64,000 nt of DNA from Diplosphaera chodatii (lineage: Eukaryota > Chlorophyta > Trebouxiophyceae > Prasiolales > Stichococcaceae): the NCBI GenBank assembly GCA_032358165.1, contig JAALGY010000053.1:1984001-2048000 (forward strand). The letters are read 5' to 3'. Under the pieces are notes generated by a model. It saw only the letters and a list, made by a program, of their open reading frames with translations, was not told where the DNA came from and did not search any database. The first letter of the stretch is position 1, and the number at the start of each line of letters is the position of its first letter. Below, one piece after another: positions 14,354 through 64,000 of this stretch. A program made the position numbers and the translations under genes.

Positions 14354-15678
14354 ATGGAGCAGCTCAGCCGTGAGGATCTTGAGAGGTATGTACAACCCAC
14401 GGCCTCCAACGACGATGATGTGAGAATGGCACCAATGTCGCTACACCTGTGTTATGAGCGTGGGCATTGCGTTGTGCAGGCTGATGTTCTTCGAGCAGGC
14501 GCGGGAGCAGGCCGAGAGTGATTTCAAGGCGAACAACAGAGACGCACAGGTGCAGAGATGTCGACAAGTTGCGGTCAGCCCCGTCTTCGTGCTACAACTG
14601 CGGAAGCTGGTCATATATCATGGAGCGGGTGGTGCCGTCTGCAGGCGCTCACACGATGGGGTGGAGCTTTGCTGGAGCTAGCCCACTTCCGGCAGGGCGA
14701 CGAGTCCTACAGCATGATTGAGGATGTGAGGAGTCGTCTTTGTCCCACAAGCTCTCTGTATTGTTCGTTGTATCGTTCGTTGTGTTGCCATCATGCATGC
14801 AATGCTGCATATAGCTGACATGCGCTCTCAACATTGCAGGCTGTGAAGAAGTTCAAGCAGGGCATCGACATTGATGGCAGCCGGCACGACACGAAGTGGT
14901 GCCTCGGAAATGCATACACCTCACAGGTTGGCACTCCCAGCTTTTACGACCCATGCATCAGGACACCTGCCATGCGTCGCGCAAGGGCTGCATGCCACTT
15001 CACCATGTATCCGCCAGCAAAGCGTTCCTCGTGCAGGGCTTCCTGACAGCAGACAGCAGCAAGGCGCAGCAGTTCTTCGACCTGGCAACAGATCAGTTCG
15101 ACCTGGCCTTGAAGCAGGTGGGGTCCCCAGCCTGTGTCGACCTCTGAAGCTGCTCGTCGACTGCTGTGTCGATCCACTTCCAGATGTCCTTGCGCTGTCA
15201 CGTATGCCCAGCTCGTCACGGCGCTGCAGGACCCGTCGAACGACGTGTACCGCAAGGCAGTGGAGATGACGAAGAAGGCGCCGGAGCTGCACAGGGAGCT
15301 GCAGCGGCAGCTGGCTGCGCAGGGCGAGGTGCGCACCGCCCCCTGGACGGCATCAGCACACGCACCCAACCACCTTCATGTCTGCCGCGGTGTCGATCAC
15401 CCTCAGGCGCAGGAGGCCCGTTCCTGTGCATGGCGCATATGGCGCATCACGTCTGGGTTGCACCCGGCACGTCAGTGCTGACAGCTGCCTGATGCTGGCT
15501 GTAGACACTCACACTTGGCGGCGGCGGCGGGGCCGGCAGCAAGACCGCCACGAAGGGCGGCATCAGCGATGTGTGGTACGACGTCGCGGGCTGGGGCATC
15601 TTGGTTGCCATTGGCTTTGGCATTGTGGCGCTCTCAAAGAATGCCCCGCAGCCTGGCAGTGCGCCTGCCATCAAATGA
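14354..15678 (+). CDS. TOM20: Plant-type mitochondrial import receptor TOM20
   Basis: Outer-membrane receptor that recognises mitochondrial presequences as part of the TOM complex. The exons, in order, match the plant TOM20 layout: MEQLSREDLER start, MFFEQAREQAESDF, the hallmark LTRWGGALLELA, KFKQGIDIDGSRHDTKWCLGNAYTS, FFDLATDQFDLAL, DPSNDVYRKAVEMTKKAPELH, then a Gly-rich linker and a C-terminal membrane anchor (GWGILVAIGFGIVAL) ending in TGA at 15676-15678. Plant TOM20 is anchored at its C-terminus, the reverse of animal/fungal TOM20, and this gene follows the plant design. Two tetratricopeptide-like helices are visible. About seven exons with short GT-AG introns. Confidence 0.93.
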
Positions 15679-15910
15679 GCCCAGCAGCTGCTCCAAATAG
15701 CAGGTGGTCGAGTGTGTAGGACATTATTGCGTTGCACATCGGGCTGGCTTTTTGGCAACAGCCTTTACAAGTAGTGTGCTGTCGTGCAAGCTGTTTGGGG
15801 GTTATGCAGAGTGGTTGTACTATAACAGGCTGTGCAGCATGGACGCTATCTGGCCATCAATGTTGAACTGTCCCCCTAACAAAACATGACACCCTCGCCC
15901 AATCCCCCCG
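15679..15910. other. Convergent spacer, TOM20 / TTM3 3' ends
   Basis: Short spacer with no exon. The plus-strand TTACA at 15765-15769 reads TGTAA on the minus strand, 142 bases past the TTM3 stop, and is a candidate poly(A) signal for the CDC26-TTM3 transcript. Confidence 0.5.
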
Positions 15911-17316
15911 CTACACTTTTGCGGAGCGGCGGCGGAATCTCCCAAACTTCGTGGTTGTTGAAAACTCGTAGGGGACGCCATTCTCTTTTAGGTACTCGCC
16001 CAGCTTGCCCTTGATGGCCTCCGGATCATCCTGTGTTGGTCCAAGCACAGTCATTGTATAAGTCTCGTTGGGTCGGCACTTGCAACAGTGCGCGCCGGTC
16101 TCATGTTCATGGTTTCATGCGCAGCAGCTCAGGTATGTACGACAGCTGTTCGTCCAGTGGCCTCACAGTCTCCAGCTCGATCTCATAGAAGGTGTCCTCC
16201 GAAGGGCACTTGTCCGTGGGTGAATAGATGGTCTCATCCACCTCGAGCGTGTAGCCTTCCCTGAAATGCAGAACCGCGCAGCTTGTGCCACGGACTGGTG
16301 CGCCAACAGCAGTTGCTCCGGACTGCGCACCTTGCCTAAGTCGTCTTGGACACACCAATTGTTTGCGCACCAGTCAAAGACCGAGCGGTTGTTCTTGAAG
16401 CCGCCAAGCAGCGTGAGCTCCGAAAGGTCAGCATCCCTGCGCGTGACAGCAAGCATGATCAGCATGTGTGTGTGCAGCAGCTGTTTTGTAGTGCACACAG
16501 CTGCGAAGTCGCAGGTCGAACAATGATACAACCCACTTTTTGATCTGCTGGATGTGCTGGCTGTCGCTAGACAGCAGCAGTGACGGCTCATCCAGGCACT
16601 TCTTGGCGAAATCCAATGGAAGATCGTCCTCCACCTGCAAAGAATACAGGTCGGTATCAGACGTCCAAATTGCAAAGGGTCTGCTGCTTTGCCCTTCGAC
16701 CTTGCTGCCGGCCACTGCACGTCAGTTCTGTGCGCATGCAGCTGTGCGGCCACCTCCGTTGCTCTGCCGACGCCGTCCTTCATCTCCTGACGTCCCTGTG
16801 TGCAGCTGCACAAGGCTATCAGCACCCTATTGACACTTGCTGCACACTGCCAAGGTGCTGGTGCCACCATGCAGTCTGTCGACACTGTGCAGCGTCGTAC
16901 ACAGAGCATATAGGGTCATGCGCTGTGCTTCCATGCGGCTTGCCTTGATGGTGAGCACCGCCTTCTGGTCATCAAAGAAGCGGATGCGCAGTGTGCGGCG
17001 GAACTTGGAGACGCGCCCGTCGGGGCTGTCGAAGAAGTAGTTGCGCTGTGCGTAGATCGCCTTGCGGTTGGGTTCCAGCATGCTCAGCACCTGATAGAAA
17101 TTTCCGCACGTCAATGTAGTCACAGCATGTCGGCCCGTCAGCGGCGGCATGGTGCCAATGCTGCATGGACATGCTTGCATGCGGCTGCGCTCTGTCACAA
17201 CTCGACGATCGTCTGACTCATGGCAGTGCGCCCTGTTTGGCGTCCGGGCTCCTGTTAATGAGCACCTTGGCGTGAGCAGCGGCATCTGGCAGCTGCAGCT
17301 TGATCTCCACTTCCAT
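15911..17316 (-). CDS. TTM3: Triphosphate tunnel metalloenzyme 3 (CYTH domain)
   Basis: CYTH/TTM-fold phosphohydrolase; plant TTM3 cleaves inorganic tripolyphosphate with a metal cofactor. The protein begins MEVEIKLQLPDAAAH, containing the family's EXEXK signature (EVEIK). Later exons give QRNYFFDSPDG and RRTLRIRFF with KAVLTIK (about 16940-17095), a central segment with DLPLDFAKKCLDEPSL (about 16560-16640), LGGFKNNRSVFDW (about 16370-16420), LEVDETIYS and YEIELETVRPL (about 16150-16250), and a last exon ending TTKFGRFRRRSAKV with TAG at 15911-15913. The charged residues lining the tunnel appear intact. The start ATG at 17316 has A at -3 and G at +4, a strong context. CDC26 ends 115 bases upstream on the same strand. 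Confidence 0.92.
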
Positions 17317-17431
17317 GCTGTGAGTCTGAGCAGCTCCTGGTACTGCTGCGCCTGTAGTGCGGCGCCTGAGAGCACGGGTAAGCGAGCCGCGTACAAATGT
17401 TCGTTCTTGTGCTGGGGACTGTGCACCGAGG
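17317..17431 (-). promoter_or_regulatory. ATG-free intercistronic spacer between CDC26 and TTM3
   Basis: 115 bases between the CDC26 stop and the TTM3 start. No ATG in any minus-strand frame here, and none in either CDC26 exon except its own start. This favours TTM3 translation from the same mRNA by leaky scanning or reinitiation. Confidence 0.6.
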
Positions 17432-17767
17432 CTAGCTCGCTGGTGGCTGTGGTGCGGGAGCCCTTGCAGCACCGGCGGCAGTGGCGGCGGCTGTAGCGGC
17501 CTGCTGGGCTGCTGCGGCTTGCTGACCTGCAAGGCCGATGCGGTCCGCAACGCTCGCTGGGCGATGCTGCTCCTGCGGTGGCAACATGCATTTGACGTCA
17601 CCAGCTCAGCATGGGACAAGCGGCCTGCACTGGGCACAACCAGGCGTACTAACCGTGTGAATCGGCAGAGCCTGCCCCTGATGTTGTCGCTCCCGCACAA
17701 TTTGCTCGTATTCGGCCTTGTCAGTGTCCAGCTGCAGCTCGATGACAGTTGCCGGGCGCCGCAGCAT
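17432..17767 (-). CDS. CDC26: Anaphase-promoting complex subunit CDC26
   Basis: Small APC/C subunit that stabilises the CDC16/APC6 TPR protein; nuclear. Two exons: 17654-17767 (38 codons) and 17432-17572 (46 residues plus TAG), split by an 81-base phase-0 GT-AG intron, giving 84 residues. The N-terminus MLRRPATVIELQLDTDKAEY matches the CDC26 signature (MLRR, then IEL-L and an acidic/aromatic pair). Exon 2 carries ADRIG, the second conserved CDC26 patch, before an Ala/Gln-rich tail. The start context is weak (T at -3, C at +4). No minus-strand ATG occurs for more than 170 bases upstream. The protein is easily missed because of its size. TTM3 follows at 115 bases on the same strand, as in the plant CDC26-TTM3 locus. 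Confidence 0.88.
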
Positions 17768-18870: not shown

Positions 18871-20873
18871 ATGGGCGGGAAGCAGAGATGGACGCCGGAC
18901 GAGGAGAGGGCACTGCGGGACGGCGTCGATCGGTGCGTGCACGGGGCACGCGAACGACACCTCACTCGGGCTATGCAGCGATCCGCTGCTGGTGCCCTCA
19001 GTCTGCATGGTTGCAAGGGTGTCGTTGCACCTGCGACCTGCAACTGCCAACAGTACATGGCTGCGCTCCAAATAGGTATGGACCAGGCAAATGGCGCACC
19101 ATCCAAAAGGACCCGGAGTTTGCTGCGCGGCTTGCTGCAAGGTCGAATGTCGATCTCAAGGTGCGCGCGGGTCCATCAACCCTATGCTGACCGCAGGCAT
19201 TTGCCATGCTCACCCCTTCCGCCAACCCACCAACAAGAGACTTGCGATGCAGGACAAATGGCGGAACCTGACAGCAGACCCCTCCCAGAAGGCAGCTGCG
19301 AAGCACAGGGCCTCCCACGGCACCTCGAAGGTGCCCCGCACCTCTTGCGCACCGTGACACTGAACATGTGCGGGCATGTCAGCAGCAGGCACATAGTGAC
19401 ACGCGGAGGGTGGACGGATGGCAGCATGTGACGGAGGATGCCACGTGTGCAGAGGGGCCGGGGCAGGCAGCGGGGGTCGGCGGCCGTGCGGCAGGGGGCG
19501 GAGCCGCAGCGGGGGGTGTCTGCGCCCCGCAGGCACCGCGCCTCCGCCATGGAGGCCGCAGCCGCCGCCGAGGTGCTCATGGGCACCGGCGGCGCGGGCC
19601 CCAGCCGCCCCCGCACCAACGGCCGCGCCCCGACCCTGGGGCCCAAGTGCGCGGTCGTGACCCCATGCAGACGTTCGCGAGCCGTGGCCCTCCGCCGCTT
19701 GTTGTGGCCAGAAGCGCACTTGGCAAACCTTGTCCTGAGCATCACCAGTGGACGCCATACTTCGTGGCACATGCATGGGCTGCTGATTCCCGAACCATGG
19801 GGGCTTTGCCTGGCCGCAGGCCAGAGGACATGATCATTGCAGCCATCATCTCGCTGGGCGAGCCCCGCGGCTCGCACCCAGACGACGTGCAGGACTGGAT
19901 CAAGGTAGGAGTTGGAGCTTGCTGACTTTGCTGCCGTGGTGACATCCCAGCCATGCGTCCTGCTCTCCTGGGAATGTCATGATCATGCATAGCATGGTGG
20001 TTGAGGCATCTCCCGTGCTGCTCGGCCTGCAGTCCCAGTACAGCGTGGCGCCCAACTTCAGGCGCGTGCTGGCGCCCACCCTGCAGCACATGGTGGAGAC
20101 CGGCCGCCTGGACACCGACGAGGGCCCCAGCGCCGGCAAGCACTCCTGTCGTTTGTCGCTTGTTGTCGAAAGTGCTGCACCCCGCACAACTCGACACACC
20201 CAAGTCACAGAGAACACGCTGCAGGCCACACCTCAGCCAATGCTTCACTGGGGCCCGTGAGCCTGACTGATCACGTTCGTGCACCCACACCGCAGGCTGC
20301 TGCTACCGCCTGGCGACGCTCAAATATGCGCCGCAGCACAGCGGTGATGCTGGCGCCTCTGACGGTGACGCCTCAATGCCAGCGTATGGGGACATGCGCG
20401 GCGTACATGACCAGGTCACCATCTGCTGCACCCCTCGACTCGCATCTTGCTTGCTGCAGATGGCACACTACGTAGCATGACCGGCAACCACATCAGATCT
20501 CACGATCGTGGGTGTATCGTGTACATGTAGAAGCAACGGCTCCTGAACCCGTGTGCAGACTGCTTTGGAAGCAGCACAGCAGGCAGCGGCAGCGGTGGCA
20601 GAGGCAGCGGAAGCAGCCGCACGGGCTGATCGGCTGGGCCATGCAGCACACCTGTTTGAGGAGGCCGCTCGGCAGGTGCAGTGCTGCGTGTTCATGCTGG
20701 TATTCCGCGCCTGAGCATACGTTTCAGCGACACGATGCTTGCTGCCTGGAGTCTGCTCAAGGTCTGCCTCAAGGGGAGTGGTGCTGCAGGCGGAGGCAGA
20801 ATCGCCAACTGCCGGCGGCAACGGTGGCAGCTGGTCAGGTCGGCAGCCAAAGCGGGAGGACGAGCCAGGGTGA
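18871..20873 (+). CDS. TRB: Telomere-repeat-binding (TRB / single Myb histone) protein: Myb + H1/H5 + coiled coil
   Basis: Nuclear DNA-binding protein of the green-lineage TRB family, which binds telobox/telomeric DNA and links to chromatin regulation. The start ATG at 18871 opens MGGKQRWTPDEERALRDGV, the N-terminal Myb helix. The next exon has YGPGKWRTI and ends VDLK, which splices to DKWRNL (about 19252), making the family hallmark VDLKDKWRN. After an Ala/Pro-rich linker, exons at about 19820-20130 encode the linker-histone globular domain (MIIAAIISLGEPRGS, FRRVLAPTLQHMVETGRL). A Tyr-rich exon and an Ala/Glu coiled coil (about 20560-20670) precede the last exon, which ends REDEPG with TGA at 20871-20873. 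Domain order is that of plant TRBs. At least seven exons. Confidence 0.88.
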
Positions 20874-59140: not shown

Positions 59141-59608
59141 GGAGTTGGGGACGGCTGCGGCAGGCGGCTACCGTTCTGACGATGAGCTCAGCCCTACACA
59201 ACTGCGAGGTTGGCGGATCAGAGCTGTGACGATGTCGGACAGCGGAAGTTCCAACGTGTAAGCTTCTTGCAGGGAGTGGCACAGCCTGCCGTACAGGCGA
59301 TCGAGACGCACCGCCGCCAGGTTGGACTACAGGCCAGCTGTAACAGCTTGAAAGTGCAATGCTGACCATCGAATGCAGACCGGGACGCTCAGGCCCCGGC
59401 GGTCCCATCACGTGCACGGCACTTGGTAGCTGCGGCGCAGCTGGACTCATCGCTTGGATTATATACTCTCTGAAGCAATTTCACCTCGTTTCGTTAAAGT
59501 CACATCGCCAAGGTGGCTTGCGATTTGCTGTGGCCTACTGGTCATCGAGTGCAGCCATATGTTGGAGTGCACTGGCTGGCATGCTGCAGTCTGCCAAGAA
59601 GGGCTAAA
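59141..59608. promoter_or_regulatory. Divergent promoter region, alpha-amylase / SecA
   Basis: No exon supported. A TATATA-like element occurs at 59460-59465, about 145 bases before the SecA start. Both flanking products are plastid proteins. Confidence 0.4.
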
Positions 59609-62600
59609 ATGAACGTGACTGGCAGCTTACCGCTGCAGTCTGGTTGCTTGCACAGCCAGCACCGCAGGTGTGCCTCGACAGCATGCCAGACAGCATGCCA
59701 TGCCCGGCGAGCTGTCCCGCTGTCGCAGCCATCGCGCTATGGCAAAGCCTTCAAGCAGTCATGCATACAGCAGCTCACCGGCGGCAGGGCTTGCCGCGGC
59801 AGCAGTGGCCGTGGCAGCAAGGCCGTCGCGCCGCAGGCTCTGTTTCAGAACATGTTCAAGTCGGATGAGGGTGGCAAAACTCGCAAAAAGTACCAGCAGC
59901 GTGTGGATCAGATCAACGGGCTGGAGCGCAAATACGAGCAGATGGATGATGAGGAGCTGAAGCAGCAGACCGAGACGCTGCGCAGCCGGGTTGCACGCGG
60001 CGAGGCGCTGGAGTCGGTGTTGCCGGAGGCCTTTGCGGTATGACCACTGTGGATAGCATGCAGTCAGTGGCAGGAAGCGTACTGGAAGCGCTTTATGGCA
60101 AGACTGCGGTAGCAGACACCGCAGGATGTCACCGCACAGATGTAGTCACATTGGCATATACCATGTTAGCTTGTCAACGGACATTGTTTTTCCAAAGGCA
60201 CTGTGGGTACGACGGCTGATCCGCTCACGCGTTCGCTGCCTGTGCAGGTGGTGCGGGAGGGGTCAAAGCGGGTGCTCAACATGCGACCCTTTGACGTTCA
60301 GCTCATTGGCGGCATGATCCTGCACGAGGGCGAGATTGCAGAGATGCGCACCGGAGAGGGAAAGACCCTGGTGTCGGTGAGCATGTGCTGCAGGCAGTCA
60401 CCTTGCAGCTCAACCGCAGACAACACATGTGATGCATGTCAGTATTGCCACTTGTATCGTGGGCAACAGCATGGCTGGCTGCTGCACAGGTGCTGCCAGC
60501 ATACCTGAATGCGCTGAGCGGCAAAGGGGTGCACGTCGTGACTGTGAACGATTACCTTGCCAAGCGAGACAGCGAGTGGGTTGGCCAGATCCATCGATTC
60601 CTGGGGCTGGACGTCGGCCTTGTGCAACAAGGCCTCGATGTGAGTTGGTCCCCAACCCCGATGCTGCTGACCGAAAGCACAGCTTTGTCATGCAGAGGAA
60701 TGGCATTTGCTGACTAGCAAAATCCTTTTGATGCATGTTGCAGCAGGCTGCAGCCCTCATGCATGTGTCAAATTGGGTCCTGTATGCCCTGGTGCTTCAA
60801 GACAGTGCTCGTTTTGGTCGCAGAATGATGAGCGTCGCAAGGCCTACAACTGCGATGTGACCTATGTCACGAACAGCGAGCTGGGCTTCGACTATCTGCG
60901 TGACAACCTCGCACAGGTATTGGACTGCAAGTGCTGCAGGGAGTCAGTCTGATTCAAAGATCTGGTTCGATGTGCTGGTGGCCAAATACCTGGCCTGCAT
61001 ACCTGGCGTGCAGTCAGCAGACGAGCTGGTGCTGCGGGGCTTCAACTTCTGCGTCATTGACGAGGTGGATTCCATCCTGATCGACGAGGCACGCACGCCG
61101 CTCATCATATCAGGTGGGCGCTGAGCATCTCCGTTTGGCAGGGTCACATCTGCTGGCACGTGGTAGAGTCACGGGGTAAAGGCAGCGCCAGAGCGTCACG
61201 GTAAGCACCGCTTCTGCTACAGGGCCTGCCGAGAAGCCGTCTCAGAAGTACGAGAAGGCCAGCAAGCTCGCAAAGGCGCTGGCGCCGGAGGTGCACTACA
61301 CCGTGGACGAGAAGCAGAAGAGCATCCTCATCACCGAGGACGGCTATGAGGCCGCGGAGGATGTGCTGCAGGTCGGTGCCTCAGGGGCTGAAACGCTGCA
61401 AGCCTCAAATGCTTTGCACTGAGCCATCCCAAGACTGCTGTGCAGCTGGGCATGGGGTTGATCTGCTGCATGTCATCATGCTGCGCGCACAGATGCACGG
61501 CATGTGAGACAGTGCCAGCAAAACTGTGCTGACTGCACCCAATGCAGCACACCTGATGGACGAGGGTTGATTTTGAGAGTTGCACAGGGCATGCCAGTAA
61601 GGATGTTTAGCACTTTTGCAGGTGAGCGACTTATATGATCCGCGGGAGCAGTGGGCGTCCTACCTGATCAATGCCATCAAGGCCAAGGAGCTGCAGAAGC
61701 GGGATGTCAACTACATCGTCAAGGAGGTGCGTGCGCCCTTGTAGTTCCATGCCGACACACGTATCTTCTTCCTCAGGAGATAGTGCAGGCCGCTGGCGAA
61801 TATTTTTGTCTATGAGCACATCACATCAGGTGGGGATGGCCATGGCATTTGTGAATAGTCTTGGATGCCTGCAGGACGAGATCATCATTGTGGACGAGTT
61901 TACTGGACGGACGATGCCGGGGCGGCGGTGGGGCGACGGCCTGCACCAGGCAGTGGAGGCGAAGGAGGGTGTCCCAATCCAGGATGAGACTGTCACGCTT
62001 GCATCCATCTCCTATCAGGTGGGTTGATGACAGCATTCCAACGTACATGACTCCATGTGCAGCGCGCACTCTCTAGAGTATGTGTTTCTTGTCGACTGTA
62101 CTGACAACATGCACTACCTGTCATGGGCATGTCAGAAGGAAGCACTCACCATTGTGAGAGTACCTCAAGTACTGATCGGTTGATCGGTGCATAGTTGACC
62201 ACCAGTTCCTTACTATCTGCTGTGATGCGCTGCTGCAGAACTTCTTCCGCAGCTACCCCAAGCTGGCAGGTATGACAGGCACAGCGTCCACAGAGTCAGC
62301 CGAGTTTTCCTCCACCTACGACCTGGCTGTCACGGTGGTGCCCACCAATAAGGTGAGCAGTGCTGACGCCAACGCTTTGACAGGAATGTGCGGTGGTTGT
62401 ATCCCACTTGGGTCAATGTAGACAAGCTACCAACCACTTCCTTCACAAATCACTGCAGCCAACGAAGCGGGAGGATGCGAAGGATGTGGTGTTTGCCACG
62501 GAGGAGTACAAGTGGAAGGCGGTGGTCCAGGAGATCCGACACATGCACAAATCAGGGCGCCCTGTGCTGGTCGGCACGACCTCGGTGGAGCGCTCTGAGG

Positions 62601-64000
62601 GTTTGGCCGCCCAGCTGGACACAGCCGGCATCAAATATCAGGTGTGCTTGCCGGAGACAGGGATTACTTACCCCTCCTGCACGTCATAGGCGGCTGCAGT
62701 ACATGTGACGTGCAGCAAGATGCACGCGTGCACCGATCACTGCAGCTTACGCAGGGCCAGAGCTCAGCATGCCAAGCTCCACGAGGAGCGTACAGACACA
62801 CTTTCGTTAATGGGTGCTTGCGCATCGTCGTGTGCAGCTGCTGAACGCCAAGCCCGAGAACGTGGAGCGGGAGAGTGAGACGGTGGCGCAGTCGGGGCGC
62901 AGGGGTGCGGTCACCATTGCGACCAACATGGCGGGGCGCGGCACAGACATCCTGCTGGGCGGCAACTCCGAGTACATGGCCCGCCTGAAGCTGCGCGAGA
63001 ACTTGCTGCCAAAGGTGATTCAGACCAAAGGGCTGATGTGTGAAGCTCAGCGGGCACATGGTTGTGTCTGAGAGCGGCAGGTCAGCTGGGCCATCATGCA
63101 TTGCGTGTAGGCAGCAGCTTTTGTGACGGGCTGAACTTCTGCTCGATGCAATGCAGGTTGTCAGCCAGGTTGAGGGCGCCAACCCTGTGTCGAAAGCCCG
63201 AAAAGCAGGACAGGCAAGTGCCTTCACACAGTGCGCGCTGCTGAGCTCTATGTCACTGCATGGCCCTGCTGGTGTATTCCAAGGCAGCAGAACTCGCTGA
63301 CTGTGTACCAACTTGACACCTTCCTACCATGGCTGTGCAGCTTAAGGACTGGAAGGTATCGCCAGAACTGTTCCCAGTGGAGGCTTCAGACAGCGCCCAG
63401 CAGCTCATCAGCACAGCCGTCAATGCAGCTGTCAACGCGTGGGGTGCGCTCGCTGCTGGATGTTCGACAAGCCTCAGTGCACCCTGCAACCATGTGCCTG
63501 GCCTGGCGGGGCCTCCTCAAGCTGTTCAAGAGCATCATCAATGCATCAAGGTCGTGTTGCTTCCAGATGCAACTGTGCTCCATTCCCGAACTGCTTCTCT
63601 AGGCGAAAGGCAGCTGACAGAGCTGGAGGCAGAGGACCGTCTGGCGTTTGCATGCGAGAAGGCGCCTACAGACGACCCAACAGCACAGAAGGTAGGCCCC
63701 CTTTGCACACATCTGTGCACGAACTCTACATGTGCATCACCATTCTGCGTGCAATGCCTGAATGGGGATGCATTTCCTCCTTTAGTTTCCAGCATGGTCG
63801 ACATGGTGGAAGCTGGTGTTGCGTTGCATGCAGCTGCGGGAAGCGTTCCAGGCGCTGCAGGCAGAGTACAAGGAGCACACCGAGGCAGCCAAGGCCGAGG
63901 TCGTGGGTGCGTCGTCCCTGGGGCTAGACGGCTGCAGCTGCATGCCTTCATGCAACAGCAGGTCCTGATGCACCTACTGACCCATCGCACATTCGGGCTC
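59609..64000 (+). CDS. SECA1: Chloroplast SecA preprotein translocase ATPase (3' end outside window)
   Basis: Motor that drives unfolded proteins through the thylakoid SecYE channel. ATG 59609 opens a transit peptide ([14 protein letters not shown], Arg/Ser-rich to about residue 80). Then [27 protein letters not shown] and Walker A MRTGEGKT (about 60345-60365), [47 protein letters not shown] (Walker B, about 61045-61100), the preprotein-crosslinking domain ([20 protein letters not shown]), [27 protein letters not shown] (about 62270-62310), [13 protein letters not shown], and [18 protein letters not shown] (about 62915-62965). The last exon seen ends AAKAEVV near 63905, just before the conserved GGLYVIGTERHES region, which lies beyond the window. 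SecA1 rather than SecA2 is inferred from wording. Confidence 0.93.

Follow-up and report, generated by a model that had tools for sequence, protein, structure and literature searches.

The first important finding of this analysis is that CDC26 and TTM3 are arranged head to tail on the minus strand, spanning 17767–15911, in the window (the whole 64,000-nt stretch of DNA analysed here, positions 1984001–2048000 of contig C46 in an assembly of 85.6 Mb and 55 contigs), and that a second contig, C49, carries the complete pair in the same order, with the same 115-nt spacing and with both ORFs intact. Judging from sequence features present in both copies, it is very likely that CDC26 and TTM3 share one spliced bicistronic mRNA, with TTM3 predicted to be translated by leaky scanning past the weak start codon of CDC26. 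A single promoter ahead of CDC26 would drive a joint CDC26–TTM3 transcript, which would be spliced and would end at a single poly(A) site after TTM3; scanning ribosomes would bypass the weak CDC26 AUG and start at the strong AUG of TTM3.

An earlier, sequence-only reading of this DNA had described a two-exon CDC26 of 84 residues lying first, with TTM3 on the same strand, which was left unnamed, and 115 bases between them. This description is borne out by the gene models and by PF10471 and CYTH matches, and is repeated on C49; the bounds of the pair had been correctly read and well placed. The same reading had held that the two proteins are translated from one mRNA, which we can follow in part: the published bicistron is matched in gene order, in the shared strand and in spacing, and the features expected of leaky scanning are found in both copies, but the single mRNA itself is what we infer.

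The CDC26 and TTM3 gene models and their surroundings

CDC26 is modelled as a protein of 84 aa encoded by two exons between 17767 and 17432 on the minus strand, with an ORF of 255 nt. Exon 1 (17654–17767, start codon 17767–17765) carries the match of residues 1–34 to the PF10471 profile, an 81-nt GT-AG intron follows (17573–17653, GTTAGT...CCGCAG), and exon 2 (17432–17572) includes the stop codon TAG (17434–17432). CDC26 clears the curated PF10471 cut-off of 24.5 bits only just, with 25.9 bits over the N-terminal 34 residues in the window and 24.6 bits for the C49 copy; its relatives P0035 and P0036 do not reach this cut-off (18.3 and 18.6 bits). Among PDB chains, CDC26 has no match at E ≤ 1. 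At the place of the intron, P0035 is uninterrupted and P0036 has 29 extra residues, which may well be an unspliced intron. CDC26 would have a role in the APC/C.

TTM3, of 205 aa, is modelled in seven minus-strand exons between 17316 and 15911. Exon 1 (17266–17316) holds the start codon (17316–17314) and an ExExK motif at residues 2–6; exon 2 (16944–17090) is followed by an intron (16943–16796) that is GC-AG in the window (GCAAGC) and GT-AG in the C49 copy; exon 3 (16754–16795) measures 42 nt; exons 4 (16537–16634), 5 (16371–16436) and 6 (16167–16260) are modelled as the same exons in the C49 copy; and exon 7 (15911–16030) includes the stop codon. This seven-exon model is backed by two uninterrupted relatives, P0001 (96% identity) and P0002 (88%), which contain the residues of exon 3 and start at the same MEVEIK as TTM3, their starts being likewise predictions. 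The C49 copy, which has the 42-nt exon 3 as well, lends the model further support.

The family assignment of TTM3 is by a wide score, 73.2 bits against a cut-off of 23.2 for the CYTH profile PF01928. In a phmmer search, residues 1–201 matched four TTM3-like solved structures (6yp4, 8h92, 3v85 and 5a5y; E 3e-33 to 5e-31), of which 3v85 and 5a5y are, we assume, the Arabidopsis TTM3 protein, and matched 3sy3 more weakly (4.5e-06). An alignment of 12 rows, consisting of both genome copies and 10 of the 34 relatives found, has E2, E4, K6, R52, R54, K66, R77, E80, E82, R130, E141, D143, E144, E161, E163 and K194 invariant in all 12. These charged residues, those of ExExK and the others, presumably have catalytic roles, and TTM3 would be a triphosphatase.

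The inter-ORF spacer is exactly 115 nt long (17317–17431, minus strand). Each ORF scores above its curated family cut-off, and C49 has the pair again with the spacing unchanged; for these reasons we regard the pair as more than a chance juxtaposition. On one side, its convergent neighbour is TOM20, whose exons match PF06552, the plant-type TOM20; the last exon we infer for it, which alone has no family match, ends at 15678, placing the stop about 230 nt from that of TTM3. On the other side lies a divergent Myb-domain gene with its ATG at 18871. Three JGI proteins, P0038 (CDC26 exon 1) and P0032 and P0034 (TTM3 exons 2 to 4), each come from a 6,977-nt contig, which suggests that the three share one contig and that CDC26 and TTM3 are adjacent there. 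A protein from Linum tenue, P0021, is annotated as a single chain that has both a CDC26 and a CYTH domain, and this is probably an annotation merging two ORFs. A pattern search for related loci matched 53 genome-contig and 5 viral-contig stretches, none of which encodes a TTM3 relative.

A second copy on a homeologous contig

The C49 pair is also on the minus strand, with CDC26 at 2171935–2171599 and TTM3 at 2171483–2170070, and each of the nine exons is as long in C49 as in the window, with splice signals present. The likeness extends far beyond the two genes: window positions 1–63444 are colinear, with gaps, with C49:2154165–2216215, at about 73–79% identity in long blocks, introns included, and we therefore read C46 and C49 as homeologous chromosomes. 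Several matches to histones and tubulins are likewise distributed over pairs of contigs, for example C47/C15, C27/C26, C33/C50 and C13/C44. Because of these contig pairs and the colinearity with C49, a comparison that was made for the window only, the assembly looks like that of an allodiploid or whole-genome-duplicated alga. A green alga is the likely source. The assembly has one rbcL match, an intact frame of 475 codons on C55, and among 120 listed hits out of 7,905 those with names belong mostly to the green lineage, with clusters named for the green alga Batophora (92%) and the moss Fissidens (91%); the best full-length match among them is a JGI protein (93%). These hits represent clusters, and the percentages therefore point to a lineage and not to a species. 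The TOM20 next to the pair is likewise of plant type.

Between the copies, identity is 229 of 255 nt for CDC26 (109 of 114 in exon 1) and 563 of 618 nt for TTM3, and dN is below dS for both ORFs (NG86 dN/dS of 0.068/0.245 for CDC26 and 0.019/0.439 for TTM3), which bears indirectly on whether both proteins are made. The introns are identical at 561 of 847 aligned positions (66%), with 16 gap runs, and the flanking noncoding DNA is 77% identical upstream and 71% downstream. The spacer, with 87 of 115 nt identical (76%) and no indel, is not clearly better conserved than this nearby noncoding DNA, and P for an indel-free spacer is about 0.11.

Searching the assembly for stand-alone copies gave none of either gene: both CDC26 profile matches (2 of 2, E ≤ 0.001) and all 14 TTM3 exon matches (E ≤ 10) lie in the two pair loci. 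The search went exon by exon and scored the top candidates alone, and might therefore overlook a stand-alone copy that has diverged strongly.

Comparison of the homeologs also yielded two side observations. CDC26 exon 1 (17767–17654) differs at 5 of its 114 nt, with a dS of 0.07, whereas the value is 0.41 for exon 2 and 0.44 for TTM3. An RNA element or a short tract of gene conversion could account for this, as could chance. We do not treat the conservation of this exon as unusual, given that 792 of 63,863 windows of 138 nt across the 64 kb are equally conserved, in 15 distinct regions that include CDC26 exon 1 itself. The second concerns a SecA gene at 59537–63905 of the window, which is in about 12 separate pieces. 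Its C49 copy (2214150–2217461), in contrast, reads from stop to stop as a single open frame of 1104 codons with SecA Pfam domains, and 11 of 13 matched pieces agree between window and C49 at 82–100% identity, the other two at 52% and 70%. The difference fits wholesale intron loss via cDNA in one homeolog.

Start contexts and the predicted route to TTM3

Judged against 26 histone starts from the same genome, the start context is weak at CDC26 (TGC-ATG-C, with T at −3 and C at +4) and strong at TTM3 (AGC-ATG-G, with A at −3 and G at +4). Both contexts are the same in the two copies, with bases −5 to +4 identical at each start. At −3, the histone starts have A in 24 of 26 cases and G in the other 2. 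When these histones themselves supply the scoring matrix, CDC26 scores −2.8, below the lowest histone (−1.3), and TTM3 scores +3.4. The baseline came from 49 histone matches, of which 30 loci were read, 28 rows obtained and 26 kept, many of them mutual paralogues; the rows left out, L032 and L035, have a truncated histone-like start, with C and G at −3. Ranked among the 2716 ATGs that the window contains, the CDC26 context stands at the 69.5th percentile, which is not low, and that of TTM3 at the 96.6th. A short 5′ UTR would be expected of a leaky-scanning bicistron; the nearest ATG upstream of the CDC26 start is at −180 in the window and at −107 in C49. A baseline drawn from homeolog-conserved ATGs was abandoned as too noisy, with 133 of 454 candidates kept and many of these plainly not gene starts.

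Between the two starts, scanning ribosomes would meet no other AUG. In the modelled spliced message, the 367 nt that follow the CDC26 ATG, up to the TTM3 ATG, contain no ATG in either copy. Base composition leads one to expect about 3 ATGs over such a length, with a Poisson chance of none of 0.03–0.05 per copy, the copies being related to each other. Internal ATGs within TTM3 number 10 and 9 in the two copies. When unspliced stretches of 370 nt were scanned on both strands in steps of 10, composition being ignored, 24 of 12,726 were free of ATG in the window and 27 of 15,926 in 80 kb of C49. With the CDC26 protein held fixed, random synonymous codons gave a mean of 0.25 extra ATG and none in 75% of 5000 trials, and shuffling the synonymous codons of CDC26 itself gave no extra ATG in any trial. 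Dinucleotide shuffles of the spacer were free of ATG in 78% of cases for the window and 37% for C49, with means of 0.22 and 0.80 ATGs. These synonymous and dinucleotide nulls rule out AUG avoidance as a stand-alone proof: since the lack of ATG follows largely from nucleotide composition and from the sequence of the CDC26 protein, it supports leaky scanning but does not decide for it.

On the same bicistronic mRNA, TTM3 could instead be made mainly by reinitiation after termination at the end of CDC26. A 115-nt spacer would in general give ribosomes time to regain initiation factors, but CDC26, at 84 codons, is long for this mechanism. Moreover, a weak context at the first ORF combined with a strong one at the second is what leaky scanning needs, and mutational tests on other green-algal bicistrons (preprint PMC11291117) oppose reinitiation. 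All in all, we consider this route to TTM3 unlikely.

Slightly less probable again are two separate, closely packed genes, with a TTM3 promoter located within CDC26 or the spacer. The neighbourhood is certainly compact, and the closeness of the TOM20 and TTM3 stops means that short intergenic distances do occur in the region. However, either those 115 nt or CDC26 would need room for the 3′ UTR and poly(A) site of one gene and for the promoter and 5′ UTR of the next, and the 115-nt spacing has been retained in both homeologs. As regards the poly(A) site, the motif TGTAA, which we take to be the algal poly(A) signal, is absent between the two ORFs in both copies. A candidate lies at 15765–15769 on the minus strand, about 140 nt past the TTM3 stop, and TGTAA occurs within 150 nt past this stop in each copy, at positions that do not match and under a limit chosen after looking. 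The motif is rare (0.32 per kb per strand), and therefore its absence from 115 nt means nothing and its presence after TTM3 is mildly informative. A further argument against separate genes is that Arabidopsis and Chlamydomonas have a bicistron at the orthologous locus (PMC11892635).

Very improbable, finally, is a longer TTM3 begun at an upstream non-AUG codon and read through CDC26 in another frame, a form that could coexist with a leaky-scanning bicistron: on the spliced message its frame is stop-free upstream of the ATG for 151 codons in the window and at least 190 in C49, but a random synonymous CDC26 with a random spacer leaves that frame without a stop in 12% of 5000 trials, spacer differences by codon position are 11, 6 and 11 (versus 6, 3 and 46 in TTM3) and therefore show no coding pattern, and relatives P0001 and P0002 begin at MEVEIK, albeit by prediction. 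On the first two of these counts, a dual-coding or N-terminally extended TTM3 was rejected.

Known bicistronic loci and related enzymes

Lorenzo-Orts et al. reportedly described a CDC26–TTM3 bicistronic locus in Arabidopsis in 2019. In Duenas et al. 2025 (PMC11892635), the CDC26–TTM3 bicistron is already published for Arabidopsis and Chlamydomonas reinhardtii and is attributed to "both plants and green algae"; the literature on CDC26 and TTM3 also includes PMC7943633 and PMC6973038. The sequence-only reading had held that this pair places the arrangement in a green alga, and that a eukaryotic two-gene message kept for so long is rare. The pair is indeed present here, but its occurrence in green algae had been reported, and "rare" needs qualifying in view of the 36 bicistronic loci of C. 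reinhardtii and the 43 of Auxenochlorella protothecoides given in the same paper (PMC11892635). The arrangement is thus a known one, to which this analysis adds, modestly, one more alga and a case in which each homeologous copy has kept the unit complete.

Because the assembly holds two homeologous copies, a natural paired comparison becomes possible, in which spacing and start contexts stayed the same and internal AUGs are still lacking, while about one quarter of the spacer changed. These paired copies make the Arabidopsis cis-coupling idea testable in an alga. We suggest, tentatively, that linkage itself could be under selection in an alga of hybrid or duplicated origin, both copies (TTM3 dS 0.44) having kept their physical and translational tie because translation of TTM3 in cis holds the short CDC26 message on ribosomes. 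If linkage is selected, coupling of CDC26 and TTM3 would be older than land plants.

Comparison with known systems highlights both similarities and differences. At the level of the enzyme, the algal TTM3 resembles AtTTM3-like single-domain CYTH/TTM proteins in its length of about 205 residues, in matching them over the full length and in its ExExK motif and charged columns. It differs in being 40–42% identical to the three aligned flowering-plant members, and in a seven-residue stretch (149–155) that is absent from these and present in the five closest aligned relatives. At the level of the locus, Arabidopsis and Chlamydomonas have the same two proteins, with the small CDC26 first and TTM3 second; unlike these, the locus described here exists as two diverged homeologous copies, and its CDC26 has 84 aa with an Ala/Gln-rich tail, versus the 65 aa stated for the locus in PMC11291117. 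As for the proposed mechanism, PMC11892635 describes green-algal bicistrons with a short ORF1 (medians 357 and 291 nt), a short spacer (183 and 40 nt), a weak ORF1 context and AUG depletion, features tied there to leaky scanning, for which mutational and reporter support is given in the same work and its preprint (PMC11892635; PMC11291117). With these leaky-scanning bicistrons, the CDC26–TTM3 pair shares a short ORF1 (255 nt), a short spacer (115 nt), a weak first and a strong second start context and, with the reservation about composition made above, the lack of an intervening AUG.
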